The translations under genes were made by a program, and so were the position numbers. Positions 14,480 through 31,729 of a DNA stretch of 36,178 nucleotides are shown one piece after another. Numbering within the stretch: position 1 is the stretch's first letter; the number at the start of each line of letters is the position of its first letter. The notes under the pieces are model-generated. The model saw only the letters and a program-made list of their open reading frames with translations. It had not been told where the DNA came from and searched no databases. Source of the DNA: Ignavibacteriota bacterium (GTDB lineage Bacteria > Bacteroidota > Ignavibacteria > UBA10030); the NCBI GenBank assembly GCA_003155495.1, contig PMDB01000062.1, positions 36,816-72,993 of the forward strand, read 5' to 3'.

Positions 14480-16318
14480 ATGAGAGAGAAAAAAATTAAA
14501 AATCTTGATGAAGCCACTATTCGCTTCGCCGGAGATTCCGGCGACGGAATGCAGCTTGCGGGCACACAATTCACCAACACGACCGCCATTCTTGGAAATG
14601 ATTTGAGTACCCTGCCTGATTACCCTGCTGAAATTCGTGCACCACAGGGAACGACATCCGGCGTCAGTGGATTTCAAATCCACTTCGGCAGCACAGAAAT
14701 CAACACACCGGGTGATTCATGTGATATGCTTGTAGCAATGAACGCCGCCGCCCTTAAGGTCAATCTCCACTCGCTCATTAAAGGTGGTTCCATTATCGCT
14801 AACACCGACGGTTTTAACGACAAAAACCTTAAGCTTGCAGGATATTCTTCCAATCCTCTGAAAGATGAATCCCTCTCGACCTATCAAGTATTTGAGGTGG
14901 ACATTACAAAGTTGACCATAACATCACTTCAAGAGATGAATCTCTCCAGCAAGCTTGCTGATCGCTCCAAAAATTTTTTTGCTCTTGGAATGATGTACTG
15001 GTTGTATGATCGCCCTCTGGAACCTACACTGAAATGGCTTGCCGAAAAGTTTGCCAACAAATCTGATATTCGTGAAGCAAATATACGAGTATTGAAAGCA
15101 GGGTGGAATTACGGCGAGACAACCGAACTCTTTAAAGTGCGTTATGCTGTTGCACCGGCACGACTTGCCCCGGGGAAATACAGAAATATTACCGGCAACC
15201 AAGCGACTGCATGGGGTTTGATGGCGGCAGCTCAAAAGGCAAAAATCGATCTCTTTCTTGGCAGTTACCCTATAACGCCAGCGAGTGATATTTTACATGA
15301 ACTTTCTATCTATAAGAATTTTGGTGTAAAAACGTTTCAGGCGGAAGACGAGATTGCAGGAATCACATCTGCCATCGGTGCATCTTTTGCCGGAGCGCTT
15401 GGAGCAACAACAACAAGTGGACCCGGACTCTCTTTGAAAACTGAAGCGTTAGGACTTGCGGTGATGGTTGAATTGCCTCTTATCGTTGTCAATGTTCAGC
15501 GCGGCGGTCCGAGCACCGGTTTACCAACGAAAACTGAACAAGCCGATTTACTTCAAGCACTCTATGGACGCAACGGCGAAGCACCTCTTCCTGTCATTGC
15601 TGCCGCTACACCTTCTGATTGTTTCCATGTCGTCTATGAATCTGCACGTATCGCAATCAAGTATATGACTCCTGTTATCTGCCTCACGGATGGCTACCTC
15701 GGCAATGGTTCTGAGCCGTGGTTGATTCCTGATTATGAAAAACTTCCAGACATTATTCCTCACTTCAGAACAGACCCAATAGGATTTCTCCCCTACGAAC
15801 GAGATGAGATAACCCTTGCGCGTCCTTGGGCAATCCCCGGCACTCCTGGACTTGAACATCGTATCGGAGGCCTGGAGAAACAAAATCTTACCGGAAATGT
15901 CAACTATGAAGCCGCAAATCATGAACTCATGGTTCGCTTGCGTTCCGAAAAAATCGAGCGAATTGCCAACGACATTCCGACGGCAGAAATTGAAGGCGAC
16001 CGACAAGGGGACGTTTTGGTTGTCGGGTGGGGAAGTACCTATGGAGCAATTAAAACAGCAGTACAGCGCCATCGTGCAAAGGGACACCATGTTTCACAGT
16101 TGCACTTGAGATATCTTAATCCGATGCAAAAGAATATTGGAGCAATCATCTCCCGGTTCAAAACGATTCTCGTACCCGAACTTAATTTAGGCCAACTCAT
16201 CAAGATCATACGTGCGGATTACCTCGTGCCTGCGGTTGGACTCAATAAAGTACAAGGAGCACCATTTCTCGCCGAAGAGATTGAAGTAAAGATTGATGAG
16301 CTTATCAAAGGACATTGA
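14480..16318 (+). CDS. korA: 2-oxoglutarate:ferredoxin oxidoreductase alpha subunit (gamma-alpha fusion)
   Basis: This subunit works with KorB to oxidise a 2-oxoacid, probably 2-oxoglutarate, to the acyl-CoA with reduction of ferredoxin; the reaction also runs in reverse in the reductive TCA cycle. The 612-residue protein begins with the gamma domain (RFAGDSGDGMQLAG, residues 10-190). It continues with the pyrimidine-binding alpha domain (FLGSYPITPASDILHELS, then TTTSGPGLSLKTEALGLAVM) and a C-terminal transketolase-like domain. This fused layout is typical of KorA in Bacteroidota and Actinobacteria. Its stop overlaps the korB region with three bases between the stop and the korB ATG. Substrate choice over pyruvate is inferred from layout. 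Confidence 0.92.
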   Translation: MREKKIKNLDEATIRFAGDSGDGMQLAGTQFTNTTAILGNDLSTLPDYPAEIRAPQGTTSGVSGFQIHFGSTEINTPGDSCDMLVAMNAAALKVNLHSLIKGGSIIANTDGFNDKNLKLAGYSSNPLKDESLSTYQVFEVDITKLTITSLQEMNLSSKLADRSKNFFALGMMYWLYDRPLEPTLKWLAEKFANKSDIREANIRVLKAGWNYGETTELFKVRYAVAPARLAPGKYRNITGNQATAWGLMAAAQKAKIDLFLGSYPITPASDILHELSIYKNFGVKTFQAEDEIAGITSAIGASFAGALGATTTSGPGLSLKTEALGLAVMVELPLIVVNVQRGGPSTGLPTKTEQADLLQALYGRNGEAPLPVIAAATPSDCFHVVYESARIAIKYMTPVICLTDGYLGNGSEPWLIPDYEKLPDIIPHFRTDPIGFLPYERDEITLARPWAIPGTPGLEHRIGGLEKQNLTGNVNYEAANHELMVRLRSEKIERIANDIPTAEIEGDRQGDVLVVGWGSTYGAIKTAVQRHRAKGHHVSQLHLRYLNPMQKNIGAIISRFKTILVPELNLGQLIKIIRADYLVPAVGLNKVQGAPFLAEEIEVKIDELIKGH

Positions 16319-16320
16319 CC

Positions 16321-17373
16321 ATGAGTAATCTTATCGAAAATATCCCCATACAATCTCAATTGGGCAGCAATGTAAAATACACTACAAAAGATTTCCAGAG
16401 TGATCAAGAAGTCCGGTGGTGTCCGGGATGTGGCGACTATTCCATCCTCGCACAAGCCCAGCGCATCATGCCTGATATCGGCATCCCGAAGCATCAAATC
16501 GTCTTTGTCTCCGGCATTGGTTGTTCTAGTCGTTTCCCCTATTATTTGGATACGTACGGATTTCATGGAATTCACGGACGCGCTACGGCAATTGCCTCAG
16601 GTGTCAAGCTTGCGCAACCCGATCTTTCCGTTTGGGTAGTTACAGGAGATGGTGACGGTATGAGCATAGGCGGCAATCATCTCATTCACCTCCTGCGCCG
16701 TAATATCGATGTGAATGTCCTTTTATTCAATAATCAGATCTATGGATTGACCAAAGGACAATACTCACCGACCTCGGAAAAAGGAAAGATCACAAAATCG
16801 ACGCCGTACGGTTCTCTTGATTACCCATTCAATCCTGCCTCGCTTGCACTCGGCGCCAGCGCAACATTCGTTGCACGTACGCTCGATCGTGATCCGAAGC
16901 ATCTCCAATCGATCCTGAAACGCGCCCATGGTCACAAGGGAACTTCATTCGTCGAAATCTACCAAAACTGCAATGTGTTCAACGACGGTGCATTTTTTCA
17001 GTTCACAGAGAAAGCGACAAAAGACGACAGCGTGATATATCTCGAACATGGCAAGCCGCTTATCTTCGGCAAGGAAAAAGACAAGGGCATTCGACTGAAT
17101 GGATTTTCACCCGAGGTTGTATCACTCAAGGAGGGCAAGGCTTCCATTCATGACCTGCTTGTGCATAACGAAACAGACACAACACTTTCCTTCATTCTGG
17201 CAGATATGACCTACCACTCTCATATGCCGCGTCCGCTGGGAGTGTTTCTTTCCATAGAACGCCCGACATACGAAAACGAAATGCAGCGCCAGATCGAATT
17301 TGCAATTGAGAAACGCGGTGAAGGAAATATGGAGAAACTACTGAATTCCGGCGAGACTTGGACAATTCAATAA
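16321..17373 (+). CDS. korB: 2-oxoglutarate:ferredoxin oxidoreductase beta subunit
   Basis: This 350-residue subunit binds thiamine diphosphate and one 4Fe-4S cluster. WCPGCGDY near residue 35, GIGCSS and the Cys in EIYQNCNVF supply the cluster ligands. The thiamine site is GDGDGMSIGGNH followed by FNNQIYGLTKGQ. The ATG at 16321 has AAAGGA eight bases upstream within the end of korA, so the subunits are translationally coupled. A TTG six bases earlier is in frame but badly placed. A strong terminator follows. Confidence 0.94.
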   Translation: MSNLIENIPIQSQLGSNVKYTTKDFQSDQEVRWCPGCGDYSILAQAQRIMPDIGIPKHQIVFVSGIGCSSRFPYYLDTYGFHGIHGRATAIASGVKLAQPDLSVWVVTGDGDGMSIGGNHLIHLLRRNIDVNVLLFNNQIYGLTKGQYSPTSEKGKITKSTPYGSLDYPFNPASLALGASATFVARTLDRDPKHLQSILKRAHGHKGTSFVEIYQNCNVFNDGAFFQFTEKATKDDSVIYLEHGKPLIFGKEKDKGIRLNGFSPEVVSLKEGKASIHDLLVHNETDTTLSFILADMTYHSHMPRPLGVFLSIERPTYENEMQRQIEFAIEKRGEGNMEKLLNSGETWTIQ

Positions 17374-17464: not shown

Positions 17465-18448
17465 TTGCCGCTCCAGTTTGAATCATTTAAGACGATTATC
17501 GATTCTCATAAACGGTTTATCCTGACTTCCCATGTGAATCCTGACGGCGACGGCCTCGGCTCTGAAGTTGCTCTCGCCCACTATCTCGAATTAAGAGGCA
17601 AACAAGTTTCTATTTTAAATTGCAGTGCAACACCGGAGAACTACCTCTTTCTTCACCAACTCCATCCCATCCTTCAATTCAATTCGCCACACCATGGAGA
17701 CATTGTTGAGAATGCTGAAGTTATTATTTTACTCGATGCGAATGATCCGGACAGATTAGCTGCAATGGCACCGTTCATTATGAAAAGTCATGCCCTGAAA
17801 GTCTGCATCGACCATCATCCGGAACCAGGCAAGTTTGCGGATCTGTATCTTTTAGATGAACAATCACCTGCAACCGGGGAAATCATTTATTCCTTTATCT
17901 CTATGACAGGTGGCACGATCGACCTCGTAACAGCAACGGCGCTCTACACAGCGATTATGACCGATACCGGTTCATTTCGGTATCAGAAGACCGATTCGGA
18001 AGTCCACACAATCGTTGCTCATCTACTTCAGGCGGGAGCCGATCCAGTTGATATTTATGAACAGGTGTACGAATGTACCTCGGCAAAACGCATGCGATTG
18101 CTGGGAATGGCGCTTGCCAACCTGCAGACATTGTACGATGGAAAGCTCGCCTACATTGTTCTCACGCGTGAAATGTTTGAAACCAGCGGCACCACCGAAG
18201 AGGACACCGATGCTTTTGTGCCTTACACACTGACGATCGACGGAGTTCAGATTGGATTGATGTTCTCAGAAATGGACGATATCGTCAAAGTGAGTTTTCG
18301 TTCTAAAGGTGATATTGCAATTAATGAATTAGCGAAGGAATTTGGCGGCAACGGACATAAAAACGCCGCCGGTGCACGTATTTCCAGCGCAAAGCTCGAC
18401 GATGTTGTGCATCAAGTACTAAAGAGTGCAGGTAAATTTGTGAAGTGA
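17465..18448 (+). CDS. DHH/DHHA1 phosphoesterase, NrnA-like
   Basis: This 327-residue protein belongs to the DHH family of manganese-dependent phosphoesterases. The metal-binding motifs are NPDGDGLGSE near residue 25, LLDANDPDR, CIDHHPEPG (the DHH motif), and TDTGSFRY. The C-terminal DHHA1 domain has GGNGHKNAAGA. This combination is typical of NrnA-like enzymes that degrade short oligoribonucleotides, cyclic dinucleotide products or phosphoadenosine phosphate; the exact substrate is not readable. It starts at a TTG with GAGGA six bases upstream, the only well-placed site. It lies between a terminator and a bidirectional terminator and is probably its own transcription unit. Confidence 0.9.
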   Translation: MPLQFESFKTIIDSHKRFILTSHVNPDGDGLGSEVALAHYLELRGKQVSILNCSATPENYLFLHQLHPILQFNSPHHGDIVENAEVIILLDANDPDRLAAMAPFIMKSHALKVCIDHHPEPGKFADLYLLDEQSPATGEIIYSFISMTGGTIDLVTATALYTAIMTDTGSFRYQKTDSEVHTIVAHLLQAGADPVDIYEQVYECTSAKRMRLLGMALANLQTLYDGKLAYIVLTREMFETSGTTEEDTDAFVPYTLTIDGVQIGLMFSEMDDIVKVSFRSKGDIAINELAKEFGGNGHKNAAGARISSAKLDDVVHQVLKSAGKFVK

Positions 18449-18489: not shown

Positions 18490-18519
18490 GGCGCTCACAA
18501 ATTCTGTAAGCACCTTTTT
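18490..18519. terminator. Bidirectional intrinsic terminator
   Basis: A ten-position stem (18490-18499 with 18505-18514, two mismatches) is flanked by six A on the left and five T on the right. It ends the DHH gene on + and the DUF4900 gene on -. Confidence 0.85.
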
Positions 18520-18573: not shown

Positions 18574-19881
18574 TTAGTTCCAAAAAGTGTCACTAATTTG
18601 GGAATCATCAACCCAATTTTGTACCTGAAATGGCAACCGTGGATAACCTTCCGGCGATTGAGATTGCAGTCGTGTATCGTAATCATAGTCCTTTTGAAAT
18701 CCAGTTTGAATGACACCATTTGAAAACGTCCCAACAGGATCGCGCGCTAGTTGTTGAACACCACCAATAATCTTTAACTTCCCTCCTTTATCACGCGTAT
18801 CATAGTTCTCCGCCCCAAACCCTCCTGTTCTACTAAATATCGATGCATCGATCTCCAGTCCATCTGGTTGAGGAGATTTATTATTTTCGGCATTTAGTGA
18901 TATATGAATGTCATTATCAGCAACGAGTCCCAACATATCATCACTTGTTGCAGAAGGGTTTGTCACGGTAGGAGGCGTTTGTGCATAAACGACCGATGAA
19001 TCTATTAATATTCTCCCGGAACCTACATCACCAAGAGTTATTCGTCCATTCAATACTCCCTTCACATGAAGGTCTGCATTATTAACGAGCAGAACACCGC
19101 TTGCAGCTACTGCTGCGACTGAAGCATACGTTGTACATTTTGGCACGGTACCATTAGGAGAACCATTCATAGCTGTGCTTGATTCAGTCCAGCCATTCGC
19201 ACCTGTTCGCACAATCACTTTTCCATTTGCTAAAAATTCGACGTATGTATTTAAGCCGTTAATGTATTCTCCTGCTGCCCCCTTCGTTTTTAAATCAGTA
19301 AGATCTGTCGGTATATTTACATCAACACCTTTTTTGTATCCGCCATTAAACGCTGGATTATCTGAAGGATCCATCTTCTGAACACCATTTTTTGTTGTCA
19401 CCATCCCTTGAAATACCGGATTCCCAGAAACATGTAAGAAATCTTGTGTATGCAATGGTCCCCTGCAAATGTCTCCTGTTATCCAGTAGATTGGATTTCC
19501 ATTAATCATTTCGGTCTGGCTATAAAAAGCAAATTGAGAAAAACTACTACTTTGTATCATTATTGCAGTTGTTGATTGCACACCATTGAACGTCCCTGTG
19601 ATAAGTAATTGATCTAAAAATGGAGCTGTGTTTGTCCGGCTTGCAGTGTATGTGCCGCCCATAAAACTAATTACCTGAGACGGATTTGGTGTGCTACTGG
19701 AGACAAACGCTTGCGAAATAGCTATGTTAGCGGCGCTTTCCATAGTAAGATTGGCTTGTTCTATGACTTGATATGCAATATATTTTTCATAGGCCTTAGA
19801 TGATATAGCAGACATTCTAAATCCCATCACCATGAAAGTGACGTTAAAAGCTATAACCAACAACATTGCTGTGCGTCCCAT
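18574..19881 (-). CDS. DUF4900-like, PilX-like membrane-anchored surface protein
   Basis: This 435-residue protein starts with one hydrophobic helix (about residues 4-26) directly after MGRT, then a helical stretch (AYEKYIAYQVIEQANLTMESAANIAIS) resembling the N-terminal spine of minor pilins. The rest is Ser/Thr/Asn/Gly-rich with many short beta-like segments and ends DTFWN. The layout, including a DICRGPLHTQDFLHVSG segment, matches proteins annotated DUF4900 in Chlorobi/Ignavibacteria and Thermotogae. AAAGGAG precedes the ATG. It is the last gene of a three-gene unit with spacings of 12 and 15 bases. Function is unknown; a surface appendage or adhesin role is inferred. No canonical prepilin cleavage motif is present. 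Confidence 0.75.
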   Translation of the reverse strand: MGRTAMLLVIAFNVTFMVMGFRMSAISSKAYEKYIAYQVIEQANLTMESAANIAISQAFVSSSTPNPSQVISFMGGTYTASRTNTAPFLDQLLITGTFNGVQSTTAIMIQSSSFSQFAFYSQTEMINGNPIYWITGDICRGPLHTQDFLHVSGNPVFQGMVTTKNGVQKMDPSDNPAFNGGYKKGVDVNIPTDLTDLKTKGAAGEYINGLNTYVEFLANGKVIVRTGANGWTESSTAMNGSPNGTVPKCTTYASVAAVAASGVLLVNNADLHVKGVLNGRITLGDVGSGRILIDSSVVYAQTPPTVTNPSATSDDMLGLVADNDIHISLNAENNKSPQPDGLEIDASIFSRTGGFGAENYDTRDKGGKLKIIGGVQQLARDPVGTFSNGVIQTGFQKDYDYDTRLQSQSPEGYPRLPFQVQNWVDDSQISDTFWN

Positions 19882-19896
19882 AACCTATCTCCTTTA

Positions 19897-20538
19897 TTAC
19901 CTTGCTGAAGTTTGGAGTATTGAGTTCCTCGATATCGAACGTATTTGCCGCCAAAGCATTACGTAATTTGAGGTATCCATCATATAATCTTGTTTTGCTT
20001 GATAAGGACTCTCAAGTTTGAGAGTAACATCGATCGGTCCAATATTGCCTAAATTAGCAATTGGGAAAGCTAATGTATTAGTCGGATCCATAATATCATA
20101 ATATCTGAAACTAAATTGGGTCACACCGAGATTCATTCTACTTTCCACACCGTTTACGGTCCTGTACACGTAGCAATCGTTTGGATTTGCAGTTTCTGGT
20201 ATCTCTGAAGGTTTTCCAACCCGCCATTGAACAATATCAGCAGCAACCGCCCCCGGTGTAGTCGATCCGGATAGATCAGTGAGAAACTGAAATGTATCGG
20301 CTTTGGCCACTTGAATTGGAGGAATACCTGTTAGGGTAGCATTTGAGTTCAGTCCAACGCGCTTAAGATCCTGTTCCAGCATTACCGTCAGCGTAGCCAT
20401 ATTTCTTTGAAGCATATAATCCGCCGAATATGCATCTGAATTTTCATGTGCACTTTGATTAAGGCGGATCACTATAAGAAAAAGCAATCCAAAGACCAAG
20501 AACGATCCAATCGTATCAAGGAGTGATGAAGTTCCCAT
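19897..20538 (-). CDS. PilW-like pseudopilin-type protein
   Basis: This 213-residue protein has a single N-terminal hydrophobic helix (about residues 6-25, then RLNQSAHENSDAYSADYMLQRNMATLTVMLEQDLKRVGLN), followed by a beta-rich region. The helix followed by a polar amphipathic run and LEQDLKRVG resembles PilW/GspJ minor pseudopilins, which have a similar DLRRA/G segment. The usual leader and FTLIE motif are absent: only MGTSS precedes the helix. GAGGAAAG sits seven bases before the ATG. Product function is unknown; the pilin resemblance is by layout rather than strong sequence identity. Confidence 0.65.
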   Translation of the reverse strand: MGTSSLLDTIGSFLVFGLLFLIVIRLNQSAHENSDAYSADYMLQRNMATLTVMLEQDLKRVGLNSNATLTGIPPIQVAKADTFQFLTDLSGSTTPGAVAADIVQWRVGKPSEIPETANPNDCYVYRTVNGVESRMNLGVTQFSFRYYDIMDPTNTLAFPIANLGNIGPIDVTLKLESPYQAKQDYMMDTSNYVMLWRQIRSISRNSILQTSAR

Positions 20539-20550
20539 AATGTTCTTTCC

Positions 20551-21132
20551 TCAATAAAAACTGAAGATATATGATAATTTTATTGTATCAACACCTTTAC
20601 CACTTAGGTCACCTGCAGATGTTTCAAAGACTTTCCGATCTACAGATGAGTTTATCGCTATATCCATCCGTTTGAGCCAAGTTGGTACTGCGGAAGGAGA
20701 ATAGGCAGGTGGAATTGTATCGATATAATAAACTTGTGCCGAGACGTGAAATCTATCAACATTTGTTATCGAAGTGTCTATCGTAAAACCGTTATAATCA
20801 TCAAAGTCATCAAACGAAGTGTCCTTACCAACCCATTCAGGAGGACCGTAAATATTTTTACCGCCAATATCTGGTCCAAGATCCGCTGCTGCCGTAAATA
20901 TTGTCGCAGGCGCTGGAATAGTAGCAAGAGGAGGTCGTACGACTGTTTTTTCGTCATAATTCATACCGCTTGCTTTTTGGATATAAGAAGTCGCCAAAGA
21001 AGCTGCATAAATACCTAATTTTGTTTGGCGTAAAACAGTCCCTTGTTGCAGAGAGTTTCGGTTTACAGTGAACACAGTTGTTCCCAACAGAATCATTGCT
21101 CCTGAAACTAACATCATCTGTCCGGTATTCAT
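20551..21132 (-). CDS. PilV-like pseudopilin-type protein
   Basis: This 193-residue protein begins MNTG and a hydrophobic helix (QMMLVSGAMILLGTTVFTV), then a helical stretch with SLATSYIQKASGMNYDE, which recalls the region after the helix in PilV/GspI pseudopilins where ATSYIQ-like segments are common. The remainder is beta-rich and ends ...SYIFSFY. It heads the three-gene unit, with GAGAGA upstream of the ATG and a promoter candidate about 50 bases further up. No GFTLIE motif or charged leader is present. Function unknown. Confidence 0.65.
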   Translation of the reverse strand: MNTGQMMLVSGAMILLGTTVFTVNRNSLQQGTVLRQTKLGIYAASLATSYIQKASGMNYDEKTVVRPPLATIPAPATIFTAAADLGPDIGGKNIYGPPEWVGKDTSFDDFDDYNGFTIDTSITNVDRFHVSAQVYYIDTIPPAYSPSAVPTWLKRMDIAINSSVDRKVFETSAGDLSGKGVDTIKLSYIFSFY

Positions 21133-21178
21133 ATTCTCTCAATGCCTTTTTATTAATTAGAATTAAAATCTTGTCTAT

Positions 21179-21207
21179 AGTATAGATTATCTCAATTTCA
21201 TATTCAA
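21179..21207 (-). promoter_or_regulatory. Promoter of the pilin-like gene unit
   Basis: On the minus strand TTGAAT (21207-21202) and TATACT (21184-21179) are separated by 17 bases. The predicted start near 21172 leaves a leader of about 40 bases before the first pilin-like gene. Confidence 0.5.
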
Positions 21208-21487
21208 GTGTTAAGTTGGCGCATTGCTATTTTTATCCTCTCACGTCTATATAATGCATCAATATATAGCGAACGCTTTCTAATTGTGTGACTCAAATCA
21301 CTGTATCGATCCTCATGTTCAGTCTCCTCGTTTCCGCGGTCACCTTCATATTTTGTGCCAAAAAAAGGAGAAGCGAAAGCATTAAATTTTTCAGCATTTT
21401 ATTCTTCTAACTTTTTGTATGAAAATATTTTCTACAAACTTCCACAAAAAATAGGAATTTAGGAAGTGGCGAAAGTAAAATGACGAT
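21208..21487. other. Intergenic remainder upstream of the pilin-like unit
   Basis: With the promoter above, the gene-free interval is 355 bases (21133-21487). Apart from that promoter I see AT-rich sequence with no convincing frame. ACTTCC and GGAAGT words around 21440-21470 could form a weak hairpin after the Nudix gene, but without a proper T-run. Confidence 0.4.
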
Positions 21488-22027
21488 TTATTCGGAAATG
21501 TGCGATTTTGCTATGTTCCATGCCGCTATTGTCATTCCATCCCAAATCCTTCCGATGGTAATACGGGCATCCACTTCATCCGGAGCCAGAGATACTATTT
21601 CGAACTCCTCCGTCTCATCCGGTATTGGTGGAACCTCAGTAAGGTTTTTCGCAATGAAGACCCGGCAGAGTTCATCCGTTATGCCGTTATAAGGATTGAA
21701 TTCGCCGGCCTTGTACCAATCGCTTGCAATGAATCCTGCTTCTTCTTCAAGTTCATGCTTTGCGGTTTCTTCATAAGTGTGCCCATCCTTCACACCGCCG
21801 CAAGGAAGTTCAAGGCTTTCCCGGTCATTCAAGTATCTGTATTGGTTTACGAAAACAATTCTGCCGTTATTTAACACCGGTACAACCATACTTGCCCCAT
21901 TGGTATGGACATAGTGATATTCCCCTCGTTTCCCGCTTGGCAGTTCGGTTTCATCCTTTTTATACATCCACCAAGAATTATGGAAGAGAACGGCTTCAGA
22001 AATTTTTTTCCACTTTTTAAGAGGCAT
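21488..22027 (-). CDS. Nudix hydrolase, ADP-ribose pyrophosphatase-like
   Basis: This 179-residue protein contains a Nudix box: GGVKDGHTYEETAKHELEEE, then AG. Nudix enzymes cut nucleoside diphosphates linked to another group; the surrounding sequence (VVPVLNNGRIVFVNQYR and LELPCGGV) resembles the ADP-ribose pyrophosphatase group (NudF). The usual Arg of the REUxEE core is His here (KHELEEEAG), although the metal-binding glutamates are present. It lies 263 bases after sucD, beyond a repeat region, and may be transcribed on its own. Confidence 0.88.
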   Translation of the reverse strand: MPLKKWKKISEAVLFHNSWWMYKKDETELPSGKRGEYHYVHTNGASMVVPVLNNGRIVFVNQYRYLNDRESLELPCGGVKDGHTYEETAKHELEEEAGFIASDWYKAGEFNPYNGITDELCRVFIAKNLTEVPPIPDETEEFEIVSLAPDEVDARITIGRIWDGMTIAAWNIAKSHISE

Positions 22028-28364: not shown

Positions 28365-29669
28365 TTATTTCACCGATTGAAAGTCAAAATGTTCAAGCTG
28401 CCATTTCACTCGAGACAGGAATTTCCCGCCCGTTGCTCCATCGATGATACGATGGTCAAATGTCATTGTTAAGTACACCACCGACCGAATGCCTATCGAA
28501 TCTTTTCCGGAATCATTCGTCACAACTTGCGGCCGTTTCTTGATCAAACCAACGCCGATAATTGCCGACTGCGGCTGGTTGATAATCGGTGTTCCGATGA
28601 TGCTGCCGAAAATACCATAATTTGTCATCGAAAATGTCCCATCGGCGATGTCGTTGGGCGTTAATTTCTTCGTACGTGCACGAAGAGCAATATCCGTTAA
28701 TGATCGAGCCATATCTACGAAATTTTTCTCTTCAGCGTTGCGCACCACTGGCACAATCAATCCATTGGGCGACGCGACTGCCATGCCGAGATTGATGAAG
28801 TTCTTATAGATGATCGTATCGCCTTCTACCGAGCAATTGACAAGAGGAAATTCTTTCAACGTGCTCACAACCGCATAGGCAAAGAAGGGCGTGTACGTCA
28901 GTTTGAACCCTTGCCGCTTTTCGAACTGTTCTAATATACTCAAACGAAAGTTCACAATCTCGGTCATATCTGCTTCATCAACGACAGTGACATGGGGAGT
29001 AGTATTCACGCTTCGTACCATATGTTCTGCCATCTTCTTCTGGATATTATCCATTTTGACGATGCGATACTTCGGCGACGGGTATTTCTTTGATAATTCC
29101 AAGATATCGACACTGAGAATACTAAAGGACCTGTCATTCGAATATAATTCAGCGGCATTCCGCTCCCGTTGTTTAAGATAGGTGAACACATCATCCTTTG
29201 TCACTCGACCGTTAGAGCCTGACCCTTTAATTTTTTCGAGATCACGTTGTGCGATCCCTTCTCGTTTTGCAATCATCTTTACAAGCGGAGAATAGAATCG
29301 TTGTGCGTTACGTTTTTGCTCCCAGTCTTGAACGATTGACAACTGATCTTGCGGTACACCAATGTCTTCTTGAGGCTTCTTTGCAGTCGCTTCAGGACTT
29401 ACATCTTGGTATGTGTCTATGCTGATCGATGCATCTGTTTCGATATATGCTATGATTGTTCCGACCAAAACAGTATCGTGTTCTTTCGCAAAGACCTTCG
29501 CTACTATCCCGCTGACCGGCGATGGAATTTCCGAGTCGACTTTATCGGTGCTGATTTCGAGGAGTGTTTCGTCTTTTTCAATCTTCTCCCCCAGATTTTT
29601 TACCCATCGGAGAATCGTCCCCTCCTGAATGCTTTCTCCCATCTTCGGCATAATGATTTCAACTTGCAT
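28365..29669 (-). CDS. 2-oxoacid dehydrogenase E2 (dihydrolipoyl acyltransferase)
   Basis: E2 forms the core of the complex and transfers the acyl group from the lipoyl arm to CoA. From the ATG at 29669 (AAAGG upstream), the 434-residue protein has one lipoyl domain with the lipoylated Lys43 in STDKVDSE, a linker, a peripheral subunit-binding domain ([13 protein letters not shown], then [13 protein letters not shown]) and the catalytic domain ending [11 protein letters not shown] with its active-site His. Which 2-oxoacid is used (pyruvate, branched-chain or 2-oxoglutarate) is not decided by sequence; the fused E1 neighbour fits pyruvate or branched-chain acids. It is 11 bases after E1. Confidence 0.93.
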
Positions 29670-29680
29670 ACATGCCTTTC

Positions 29681-31729
29681 TCAATATCCTGCAAGTTGTT
29701 CAAGAGCGGCGAGTATTTTCTGTTTGTTCGGCAGCATGGCATCTTCCAGTGGTGGGCTGTACGGAACCGGCAAGTCTAATGCAGCTACGCGCATAACGGG
29801 CGCATCGAGATGTTCAAAACAATTCTTCACGATAAGTGCGACAACTTCGGCGCCAAAACCAGCCGTCAGAGTATCTTCATGAATCACGGCAACTCTATTG
29901 GTTTTCTTGACTGATCGATAGATCGCTTCCTCGTCTAACGGATTTAACGTGCGCAAATCGATCACCTCCACACTCACGCCATTCGATTCCATCATTCGTG
30001 CAGCTTCCAACGATTGATGCACCATCGCTCCGTAAGTAACAACTGTAAGATCATTCCCTTGACGTCGTATTGCCGCGACTCCAAAAGGCAGGACATAATC
30101 AACATCGGGTTCAGGTGTGGATGCATACCCCTGTCGATACAATCCTTTATGCTCCATAAAGATTACAGGGTCGTCGCCGCGAATAGCCGACTTCAACAAT
30201 CCTTTCGCATCTGCTGCTGTGGATGGGAATGCTAACCGGATTCCCGGAATGTGTGCCATAAATCCTTCGATGCATTGACTGTGATAATGTCCGCCATGAA
30301 TGTAACCGCCAACGGGAACCCGAATAACCATCGGACACGACCACATTCCATTGGATCGATACCTCATCATCGCCAGTTCATCGCGAATCTGCGTAAATGC
30401 CGGCCAGATATAATCGCCAAATTGGATTTCCGGAACCGGAGTCCAACCTTTTAATGACATACCGATTGCGACACCGACAATGCTTGCCTCTGCTAATGGC
30501 GAATTAAATGTCCGTTCAATTCCATATTTCGTTAGAAGACCTTTCGTCGCCGTGAAGACTCCGCCTTTTCTATCGGCAACATCCTGGCCAAACACAACCA
30601 TCTTCGGATTACTGCTCATCTCCTCATTCAAAGTATGATTGATAGCATCCACCATCACAATTTTGTTTCCGGAATGTTCCGGTTCGATAAATTCCGATGG
30701 TGGAGTTGCATGTGCATTTCCATACACATGCTGCAGAACTGTTGAAGGATCCGGAAGCCGTTGATTCTCTGCCCATTCAGCAGCAGATTCAACGGTGCAC
30801 CTTATTTCCTCTTTCATCTCCGTTATTTCATTTTCACCTAAATATCCTTGTTCAAGAAGAAACCGCGTCAACCGTAGAACTGGATCACGCGTGAGATCTT
30901 GCTCGATATCTTCCGCTTTTCTATATTTTTTCGGATCATCCGATGATGAATGCGGCGAGAGTCGAACAACATGTGCCTGTATTAAAGATGGACCATTATT
31001 ACTCCGCGCATGATGCACAGCTTTCTGCATCGCAGTAAACGTTTCTGCCACATCAGTGCCATCGCATTGAAAATGTTCCATTCCTTTAAAACCCTTTGTC
31101 GCCTCATAGATCGACCCGCCCGCTGTTTGGGTTGTCACGGGGACAGAAATTGCGAGTTTGTTATCTTGAATAAAAAAGATGACCGGTAACACTTCACGCG
31201 CTGCCCAATTCACAGCCTCAAAGAATTCACCTTCACTGGTTGCACCTTCTCCGGAAGAGACATAGACGACTTCGTCGCACTTGTCCTTCTTTATTGCAAG
31301 CGCAACTCCCACTGCCTGAAGATATTGTGTTCCTGTCGGACTTGATTGGGATACAATACGAAGATCTTTTTTTCCGAAATGCCCAGGCATTTGTCTCGCC
31401 CCGCTCGCTGGATCTTCCCCCCGATGCAATGCCGCAAGAAAGATTTCTTCAGATGTTATTCCATATTTGAGGACAAATGCTTGGTCCCTATAGTATGGAA
31501 AAGCCCAGTCGTAACCGGGCTTGAGAGCTGTCGCAGCAGCAATTTGGGCTGCCTCATGTCCTGAACCGCCTACATGAAAAAAAATCTTCCCTTGCTTAAA
31601 AAGCGTTTCTTGCTTCTCATCCATCCGTCGGGAAAGAAGCATGATTCGATATGCGTGAACCAATTCTTCATTCGACAATCCGATCAAGTTCACATCATGT
31701 ATTTGAACTGCTTCCGTTACATCGCTCAC
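29681..31729 (-). CDS. 2-oxoacid dehydrogenase E1, alpha-beta fusion
   Basis: E1 is the thiamine-dependent decarboxylase of the complex. The 682-residue protein is one chain: the alpha domain (about 1-330) has the thiamine motif starting GEGATSEGEF (Gly160 to Asn190), and the beta domain (about 345-682) begins NKIVMVDAINHTLNEEM and contains FGQDVADRKGGVF and GFMAHIPGIRLAFPS. Most bacteria encode the two halves as separate genes, so this is a natural fusion, known in Bacteroidota and Chlorobi. GTG start with AAGGAG about eleven bases before. It follows lipB by 49 bases and precedes E2 by 11. Substrate is pyruvate or a branched-chain 2-oxoacid. Confidence 0.93.
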   Translation of the reverse strand: MSDVTEAVQIHDVNLIGLSNEELVHAYRIMLLSRRMDEKQETLFKQGKIFFHVGGSGHEAAQIAAATALKPGYDWAFPYYRDQAFVLKYGITSEEIFLAALHRGEDPASGARQMPGHFGKKDLRIVSQSSPTGTQYLQAVGVALAIKKDKCDEVVYVSSGEGATSEGEFFEAVNWAAREVLPVIFFIQDNKLAISVPVTTQTAGGSIYEATKGFKGMEHFQCDGTDVAETFTAMQKAVHHARSNNGPSLIQAHVVRLSPHSSSDDPKKYRKAEDIEQDLTRDPVLRLTRFLLEQGYLGENEITEMKEEIRCTVESAAEWAENQRLPDPSTVLQHVYGNAHATPPSEFIEPEHSGNKIVMVDAINHTLNEEMSSNPKMVVFGQDVADRKGGVFTATKGLLTKYGIERTFNSPLAEASIVGVAIGMSLKGWTPVPEIQFGDYIWPAFTQIRDELAMMRYRSNGMWSCPMVIRVPVGGYIHGGHYHSQCIEGFMAHIPGIRLAFPSTAADAKGLLKSAIRGDDPVIFMEHKGLYRQGYASTPEPDVDYVLPFGVAAIRRQGNDLTVVTYGAMVHQSLEAARMMESNGVSVEVIDLRTLNPLDEEAIYRSVKKTNRVAVIHEDTLTAGFGAEVVALIVKNCFEHLDAPVMRVAALDLPVPYSPPLEDAMLPNKQKILAALEQLAGY

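Follow-up and report, generated by a model that had tools for sequence, protein, structure and literature searches.

The window, a stretch of 36,178 nucleotides of DNA from an Ignavibacteriota bacterium with a genome of 3.59 Mb, contains three adjacent genes, V, W, and X, whose products are likely to be the filament subunits of a type IV machine that does without a prepilin peptidase. We would describe the system as a variant of the type IV filament machine that lacks leaders and, apparently, a peptidase, and that occurs widely in the phylum. The window lies on contig C110 of its genome. The V-W-X cassette lies on the minus strand between positions 18574 and 21207, and its ORFs were found where an earlier note on this DNA had placed them. 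That note described three tightly spaced pilin-like genes without canonical leaders, and the ORFs, the gaps between them, and the lack of a G-FTLIE site or N_methyl match confirm it. The features of the locus are:

17465-18448, plus strand: DHH phosphoesterase gene, convergent to X
18490..18514, no strand assigned: imperfect inverted repeat GGCGCTCACA-AATTC-TGTAAGCACC flanked on either side by A/T tracts, seen by eye and not flagged by the scan
18574..19881, minus strand: gene X, 435 aa, large third subunit, contains DUF4900, starts without a leader (MGRTAMLLV...), tip of the filament in the proposed model
19888..19895, minus strand: Shine-Dalgarno of X (AAAGGAGA), from its sequence and from enrichment in orthologues
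19897..20538, minus strand: gene W (ORF), 213 aa, PilW/GspJ-like pilin, leaderless (MGTSSLLDTIGS...), with Asp8
20545..20552, minus strand: Shine-Dalgarno of W (GAGGAAAG), from its sequence and from enrichment in orthologues
20551..21132, minus strand: gene V (ORF), 193 aa, PilV/GspI-like pilin, leaderless (MNTGQMMLVSGAMILLG..., MNTGQMM...)
21186..21214, minus strand: promoter-like site TTAACA-17-GATAAT with an extended −10 (TG), upstream of V, 10/12 in a consensus scan
21488-22027, minus strand: NUDIX gene, upstream of the trio

The intergenic gaps within the cassette are 12 and 15 bp, and these short gaps, together with the good Shine-Dalgarno sequences before W and X, are compatible with one transcript. 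Good ribosome sites had been ascribed to all three genes, which holds for X and W, but the site of V is weaker. The single promoter of the earlier note has a counterpart in the promoter-like site ahead of V, although such matches are frequent in an AT-rich stretch and the phylum may use other promoter types, so this site is at best a weak candidate for the promoter of the trio. The inverted repeat is possibly a terminator shared by X and the convergent DHH gene. The window also codes for a 2-oxoacid:ferredoxin oxidoreductase pair and a 2-oxoacid dehydrogenase E1/E2 complex (14480-17373 and 28365-31729).

The canonical leader and the G-FTLIE site are absent from V, W, and X of the window, and the N_methyl profile (PF07963) has zero matches in the whole window genome. 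The frame is closed, with no in-frame ATG, GTG, or TTG from the upstream stop to the start, in 92 of 101 V, 92 of 102 W, and 105 of 112 X genes. Shine-Dalgarno sequences of at least 4 nt were found 3–10 nt upstream of the chosen starts in 56 V, 76 W, and 86 X genes of these sets, compared with 14–18 V, 3–27 W, and 11–15 X genes when the same spacing was applied to points 18–60 nt further upstream, where the start of a leader would fall. Because of these Shine-Dalgarno sites and the closed upstream frames, the leaderless starts are fixed; the starts of V, W, and X are thus real, with each gene opening at the mature N-terminus and its hydrophobic helix.

The earlier note had also seen a Gly at positions 2–4 of each protein, just before the helix, as a possible rule. 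Gly is indeed common: about three quarters of the V and W proteins have it, and it lies within residues 2–5 in 110 of 112 X. However, W proteins without it frequently start with MA, MS, MN, MT, or MQ (MATLLDII, MSIMMDYI, MQFILDNI), and V proteins without it start with MSTYQ (MSTYQTL), MSSNQ, MAQS (MAQSFFA), or MPQT (MPQTLLA). Because so many V and W do not conserve this Gly, an ‘MG-’ cleavage rule is rejected, and where unusual processing or none had been suggested, the evidence favors none. The persistence of Gly in most copies of all three proteins may reflect some trimming, of which the Gly could be either a leftover or a target. A Lys or Arg in residues 2–8, ahead of the helix, occurs in 1 of 101 V and 0 of 102 W, whereas X has a positive charge in 109 of 112. 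Without positive charge before the helix in V and W, the positive-inside rule does not account for their N-in insertion.

The dedicated prepilin peptidase of such systems, an A24 enzyme, was sought with one profile, PF01478, which has no match anywhere in the window genome. It matches 4 of 61 related genomes, compared with 57 of 61 for the PF00437 ATPase family. In a phylum-wide sample of 395 genomes, W was found in 117 and PF01478 in 51, with both in 13, so the peptidase profile is undetected in 104 of the 117 W-bearing genomes, including 12 of the 13 that are nearly closed (one or two contigs). The four PF01478-positive relatives (G009, G036, G038, G055) each have an N_methyl prepilin as well, and at locus L222 of G038, the A24 gene adjoins a canonical leader-bearing pilin with GFSLTELMVVL. 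The detection of A24 in relatives with canonical pilin clusters indicates that the search works where the enzyme exists, and a prepilin peptidase was also matched in the control genome, Thermus composti. Elsewhere in the phylum, PF01478 gives some weak matches (E about 1e-4 to 1e-7), and a single family profile was used, which leaves room for a very divergent enzyme.

Such an enzyme, or a non-homologous one, might clip after a short M(G), MNTG, or similar sequence, in which case the pathway would be canonical with an ultra-short leader. The frequent Gly at residues 2–4 would fit this explanation, but not the many V and W listed above that have no Gly (beginning MATLLDII, MSIMMDY, MAQSFF, or MPQTLL), and the 1–3 residues at most that precede the Gly of the trio compare with 6–26 residues in the leader of a class III signal peptide, in which Gly is the last residue (PMC4471445). 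A poorly recognizable A24 protein does occur in T2SS-like clusters of Bacteroidia (PMC5553014), and the weak PF01478 matches point the same way; yet a profile of the L222 A24 enzyme, run against all of the loci examined, matched only four canonical clusters, and no convincing GxGD polytopic protein was seen beside the machine operons checked. We therefore consider an ultra-short leader to be unlikely, and prefer subunits made without any leader. An orphan canonical pilin with a leader (GFSLTELMVVLVIIGVLVLLALPKLLP) was seen beside transposase-like ORFs in another relative, G003 (L218:7518-7955); its N-terminal segment is nearly identical to that of the L222 pilin, and G003 has no detectable prepilin peptidase.

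V is present in 55, W in 54, and X in 39 of the 61 related genomes. The lower count for X is probably due to some X copies that have diverged: they give low scores but still lie behind W. With X alone as the query, no relatives were found in the contig collection, but a 12-sequence alignment of X did find them. About 100 loci share the V-W-X order, which is kept, with X after W, in essentially all of the loci read. Given this recurrence, the arrangement is more than chance, and conservation of the trio extends over Ignavibacteria and into other groups of the phylum. The earlier note had set its proposal against two outcomes, an unconserved trio or a well-characterized pilus operon with standard processing, and what is seen is a conserved trio in an operon of pilus type with no standard processing.

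At the search depths used, the single trio of the window genome is the window's own. Other genomes have more than one, with four at L072 and two each at L075, L079, L088, and L103. The four at L072 lie within 11 kb (L072:222-11053, G043:C30) and have diverged N-termini, with X starting MTGHAI, MTGRAI, or MSGRAI; here the cassette appears to be multiplying away from the machine. Tandem extra copies of X, two or three behind one V-W pair, occur at L077, L081, L102, L105, L113, and L226, which suggests that they are interchangeable tip proteins.

The earlier note reported no assembly ATPase, peptidase, or secretin nearby, and this is correct within the window; the peptidase is, moreover, undetected genome-wide. 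However, the ATPases, platform protein, and secretin are encoded on another contig of the same genome, C69 (locus L065), so the lack of a machine nearby is only a matter of location, and the idea of a machine-less cassette was wrong, since in many relatives the machine and the trio form one operon. The machine on C69 gives matches to T2SSF (92 bits), T2SSE (320 bits), a second T2SSE (115 bits), and secretin (73 bits), together with a PilO-like protein that weakly matches T2SSM. Its PilB and PilT-like genes are separated by 291 bp, with the trio missing between them. In the relatives, the operon reads PilC (PF00482)-PilB (PF00437)-V-W-X-PilT-like ATPase-PilM/N-like-PilO-like-secretin, often with a Big/CarbopepD_reg protein at the end, and it embeds the trio or a paralogous trio in families f2, f5, and f6 and in part of f1/f3. 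This order is found at L021, L024, L026, L028, L030, L051, L054, L059, and L060, and, lacking the terminal gene, in groups of the phylum that are more remote (L082, L083, L089); it is followed as far as PilO, where the locus ends, at L226, and partly at L223-L225. Thus, a traffic ATPase, a platform protein, and a secretin are linked to the pilins by the operon in relatives, and the window genome has its own machine on C69.

The space between PilB and the trio was also inspected for an overlooked small pilin gene, but no convincing candidate or other conserved small ORF is present there. A GspG with a canonical leader is therefore not seen, as the window genome has no N_methyl match and there is no conserved extra small ORF beside PilB. 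On C69, the PilM-like and PilN-like ORFs are broken at unresolved bases (N) (L065:12605-14174, G000:C69); this split is probably an assembly gap, and in relatives the two are fused into a single PilM/N-like protein of about 530 aa. A PF00437 ATPase with a length of 432 aa and no platform protein lies by itself between ATP synthase genes and an SRP54-like gene on contig C16 (L066:9561-10859, G000:C16), and a short ATPase resembling it is present in most relatives. Pairs of PilB-like ATPases (564–567 aa) alternate with response-regulator genes at L220:8360-12609 and L221:8039-12857, at L221 with small zinc-ribbon-like ORFs as well. With response regulators as partners and no pilins or platform protein, these extra ATPases were rejected as a second pilus, and from their gene content they appear to belong to a different system from the trio machine.

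The W proteins of this lineage have an invariant Asp (38 of 38 aligned), at codon 8 (MGxxTxLD) or codon 6 (MATLLD), and in the window, Asp8 of W is the sole acid of the trio N-termini. In group f33, the acid is missing from W and is found instead in V, as an Asp or Glu at codon 6 (MNDYSDL, MIGYSEV). Codons 4–8 were compared in 126 V-W pairs, which include a few genes read twice from overlapping loci (121 distinct W); the acid is in W only in 96 pairs, in V only in 26, in both in 0, and in neither in 4. Exactly one partner thus bears the acid in 122 of 126 pairs, nearly always at codon 6 or 8, although these pairs are not independent events, since the carrier switches about six times on the W tree. 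The mutual exclusion of the acid between V and W across the whole set is striking. The four pairs with no acid are one with a mis-picked start (L036), both trios of L080, with Asn in V, and L213, with Glu at codon 3 of W. If the initiator Met is removed, the residue encoded by codon 6 moves to position 5, that of Glu5 in canonical pilins. Residue 2 permits Met removal in 46 of 101 V, 70 of 102 W, and 103 of 112 X, and because this is only part of V and W, the match of codon 6 to Glu5 is not general. What may correspond to Glu5 is one acid per trio, in W or V, with none in the other two subunits.

These data also bear on whether V, W, and X are still filament subunits. They could be membrane proteins of pilin origin that no longer take part in filament assembly and now serve the envelope in a fixed accessory or adhesive role, as the detachment of the window genome's trio from its machine, the extra trios in some genomes (four at L072), and the lack of a known major pilin might suggest. 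But in many Ignavibacteriales, as in the distant groups examined, one copy of the trio is still located between PilB and PilT, and the acid near the Glu5 position is kept, which is most sensible in a polymer, so we find this explanation very improbable and retain filament subunits as the preferred reading.

X matches the Pfam family DUF4900 (PF16241) with 30.8 bits, above the curated cut-off of 29.4, and so falls within this family by score; the function of the family is not known, and no paper naming it was found in the literature searched. PF16241 matches 19 of 35 X orthologues at E ≤ 0.01. V and W gave nothing meaningful against Pfam, but 14 of 38 W orthologues match the NCBI model PRK10557, ‘prepilin peptidase-dependent protein’ (best E 9e-5). 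In a sequence search of the PDB, W had a single weak relevant match, TTHA1219 (E 0.33), V had nothing relevant, and X had no match among solved structures. The AF2 model of W has a helix at residues 3–59 followed by a beta domain (mean pLDDT 87.9), and that of V a helix at residues 3–55 followed by beta strands (mean pLDDT 83.4). Thus, V and W are predicted to have the architecture of mature pilins, a long N-terminal helix and a beta-sheet domain, from the first residues (residue 3). In Foldseek searches against the PDB, the four best matches for W are the type IV-like pilin TTHA1219 (probability 0.94–0.99), and the first match for V is the minor pseudopilin XcpV/GspI (probability 0.66, modest score); we count this agreement as weak and indicative, all E values being at least 0.001. 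The family-level similarity to GspI/GspJ-type pilins might be taken to mean ordinary minor pilins of a type IV pilus or T2SS with mis-assigned start codons, but this can hardly be correct, as the closed frames and the enrichment of Shine-Dalgarno sequences at the leaderless starts reject it, unless starts other than ATG, GTG, or TTG are used throughout, and the window genome has neither an N_methyl prepilin nor an A24 match.

In the mechanism that we propose, the hydrophobic helix of each subunit would be inserted N-in/C-out by Sec/SRP/YidC, with removal of the initiator Met as the most processing that would occur; that V and W reach the N-in orientation by inserting together with X is only an idea. 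PilC and PilB would then pull V, W, and X out of the membrane to build from them a short pilus or pseudopilus that passes through the secretin. X would cap the tip, as proposed for GspK and Thermus ComZ, and the one acid per trio, in W in this lineage and in V in others, would take the role of Glu5. The PilT-like ATPase, whose presence suggests retraction, would retract the filament. The terminal Big-type protein suggests attachment, and the parallel with the Thermus cluster of GspI-like, GspJ-like, and ComZ proteins suggests a tip receptor, for DNA in Thermus. The most likely job of the machine would be that of a short retractable filament binding something outside, whether a surface, a polymer, or DNA. 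It is a more tentative proposal, with a chance somewhat short of even, that Ignavibacteria and other groups of the phylum hold a class of machines without any prepilin processing, in which the ribosome makes mature subunits, there is no peptidase and no separate major pilin, the filament is a V-W-X heteromer, and a single acid per trio replaces Glu5.

To our knowledge, leader removal by a prepilin peptidase is regarded as the universal first step of type IV filament assembly and as diagnostic of these filaments. The present results suggest that trimming of the subunits, which is assumed to be a necessary step for these nanomachines, is apparently dispensable. Genome surveys call type IV systems by the canonical major pilin, and a lineage apparently without this pilin and without leader removal would have such machines overlooked. 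The role of the leader, its cleavage, and Glu5 becomes testable in cultivable relatives.

In the literature searched, which was that readable without subscription, leaderless pilins were not found, and pili lacking a peptidase appear only as the MSHA (MSH) loci and in some DPANN archaea. MSH loci resemble the trio loci in having no prepilin peptidase gene, but MSH genomes have the peptidase elsewhere (PMC6668835), whereas the genome of the trio has none detected and its subunits are leaderless. The so-called T2SS of Bacteroidetes, described for Cytophaga hutchinsonii (PMC5553014), is from the same phylum and has divergent minor pseudopilins, and it clusters with T4aP (PMC6668835); unlike the trio machine, the C. 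hutchinsonii system has a GspG-type major pseudopilin and a Peptidase_A24 in its cluster (PMC5553014). GspI-GspJ-GspK of the T2SS are like the trio in combining an I-like and a J-like protein with a larger third one, and the best fold match of V is XcpV, but the V-W-X machine differs from the T2SS: its subunits are leaderless, it has neither a GspO peptidase nor, as far as the operon shows, a GspG, and it includes a PilT-like ATPase. In Thermus thermophilus, TTHA1218-TTHA1219-TTHA1220 likewise place a GspI-like and a GspJ-like pilin beside a large third protein, ComZ, a GspK-like pilin with an inserted solenoid that is proposed to be a DNA receptor at the tip (PMC5131608, PMC6561018). TTHA1219 is the closest solved fold to W, while the parallel between X and ComZ is one of position and size only, as X has no sequence match to any solved structure. 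The Thermus cluster differs in having canonical prepilins and, in Thermus composti, a match to the prepilin peptidase. Compared with all of these systems, the trio machine appears to work like a type IV filament and yet to depart from the superfamily in two of its defining features, the leader and the peptidase.
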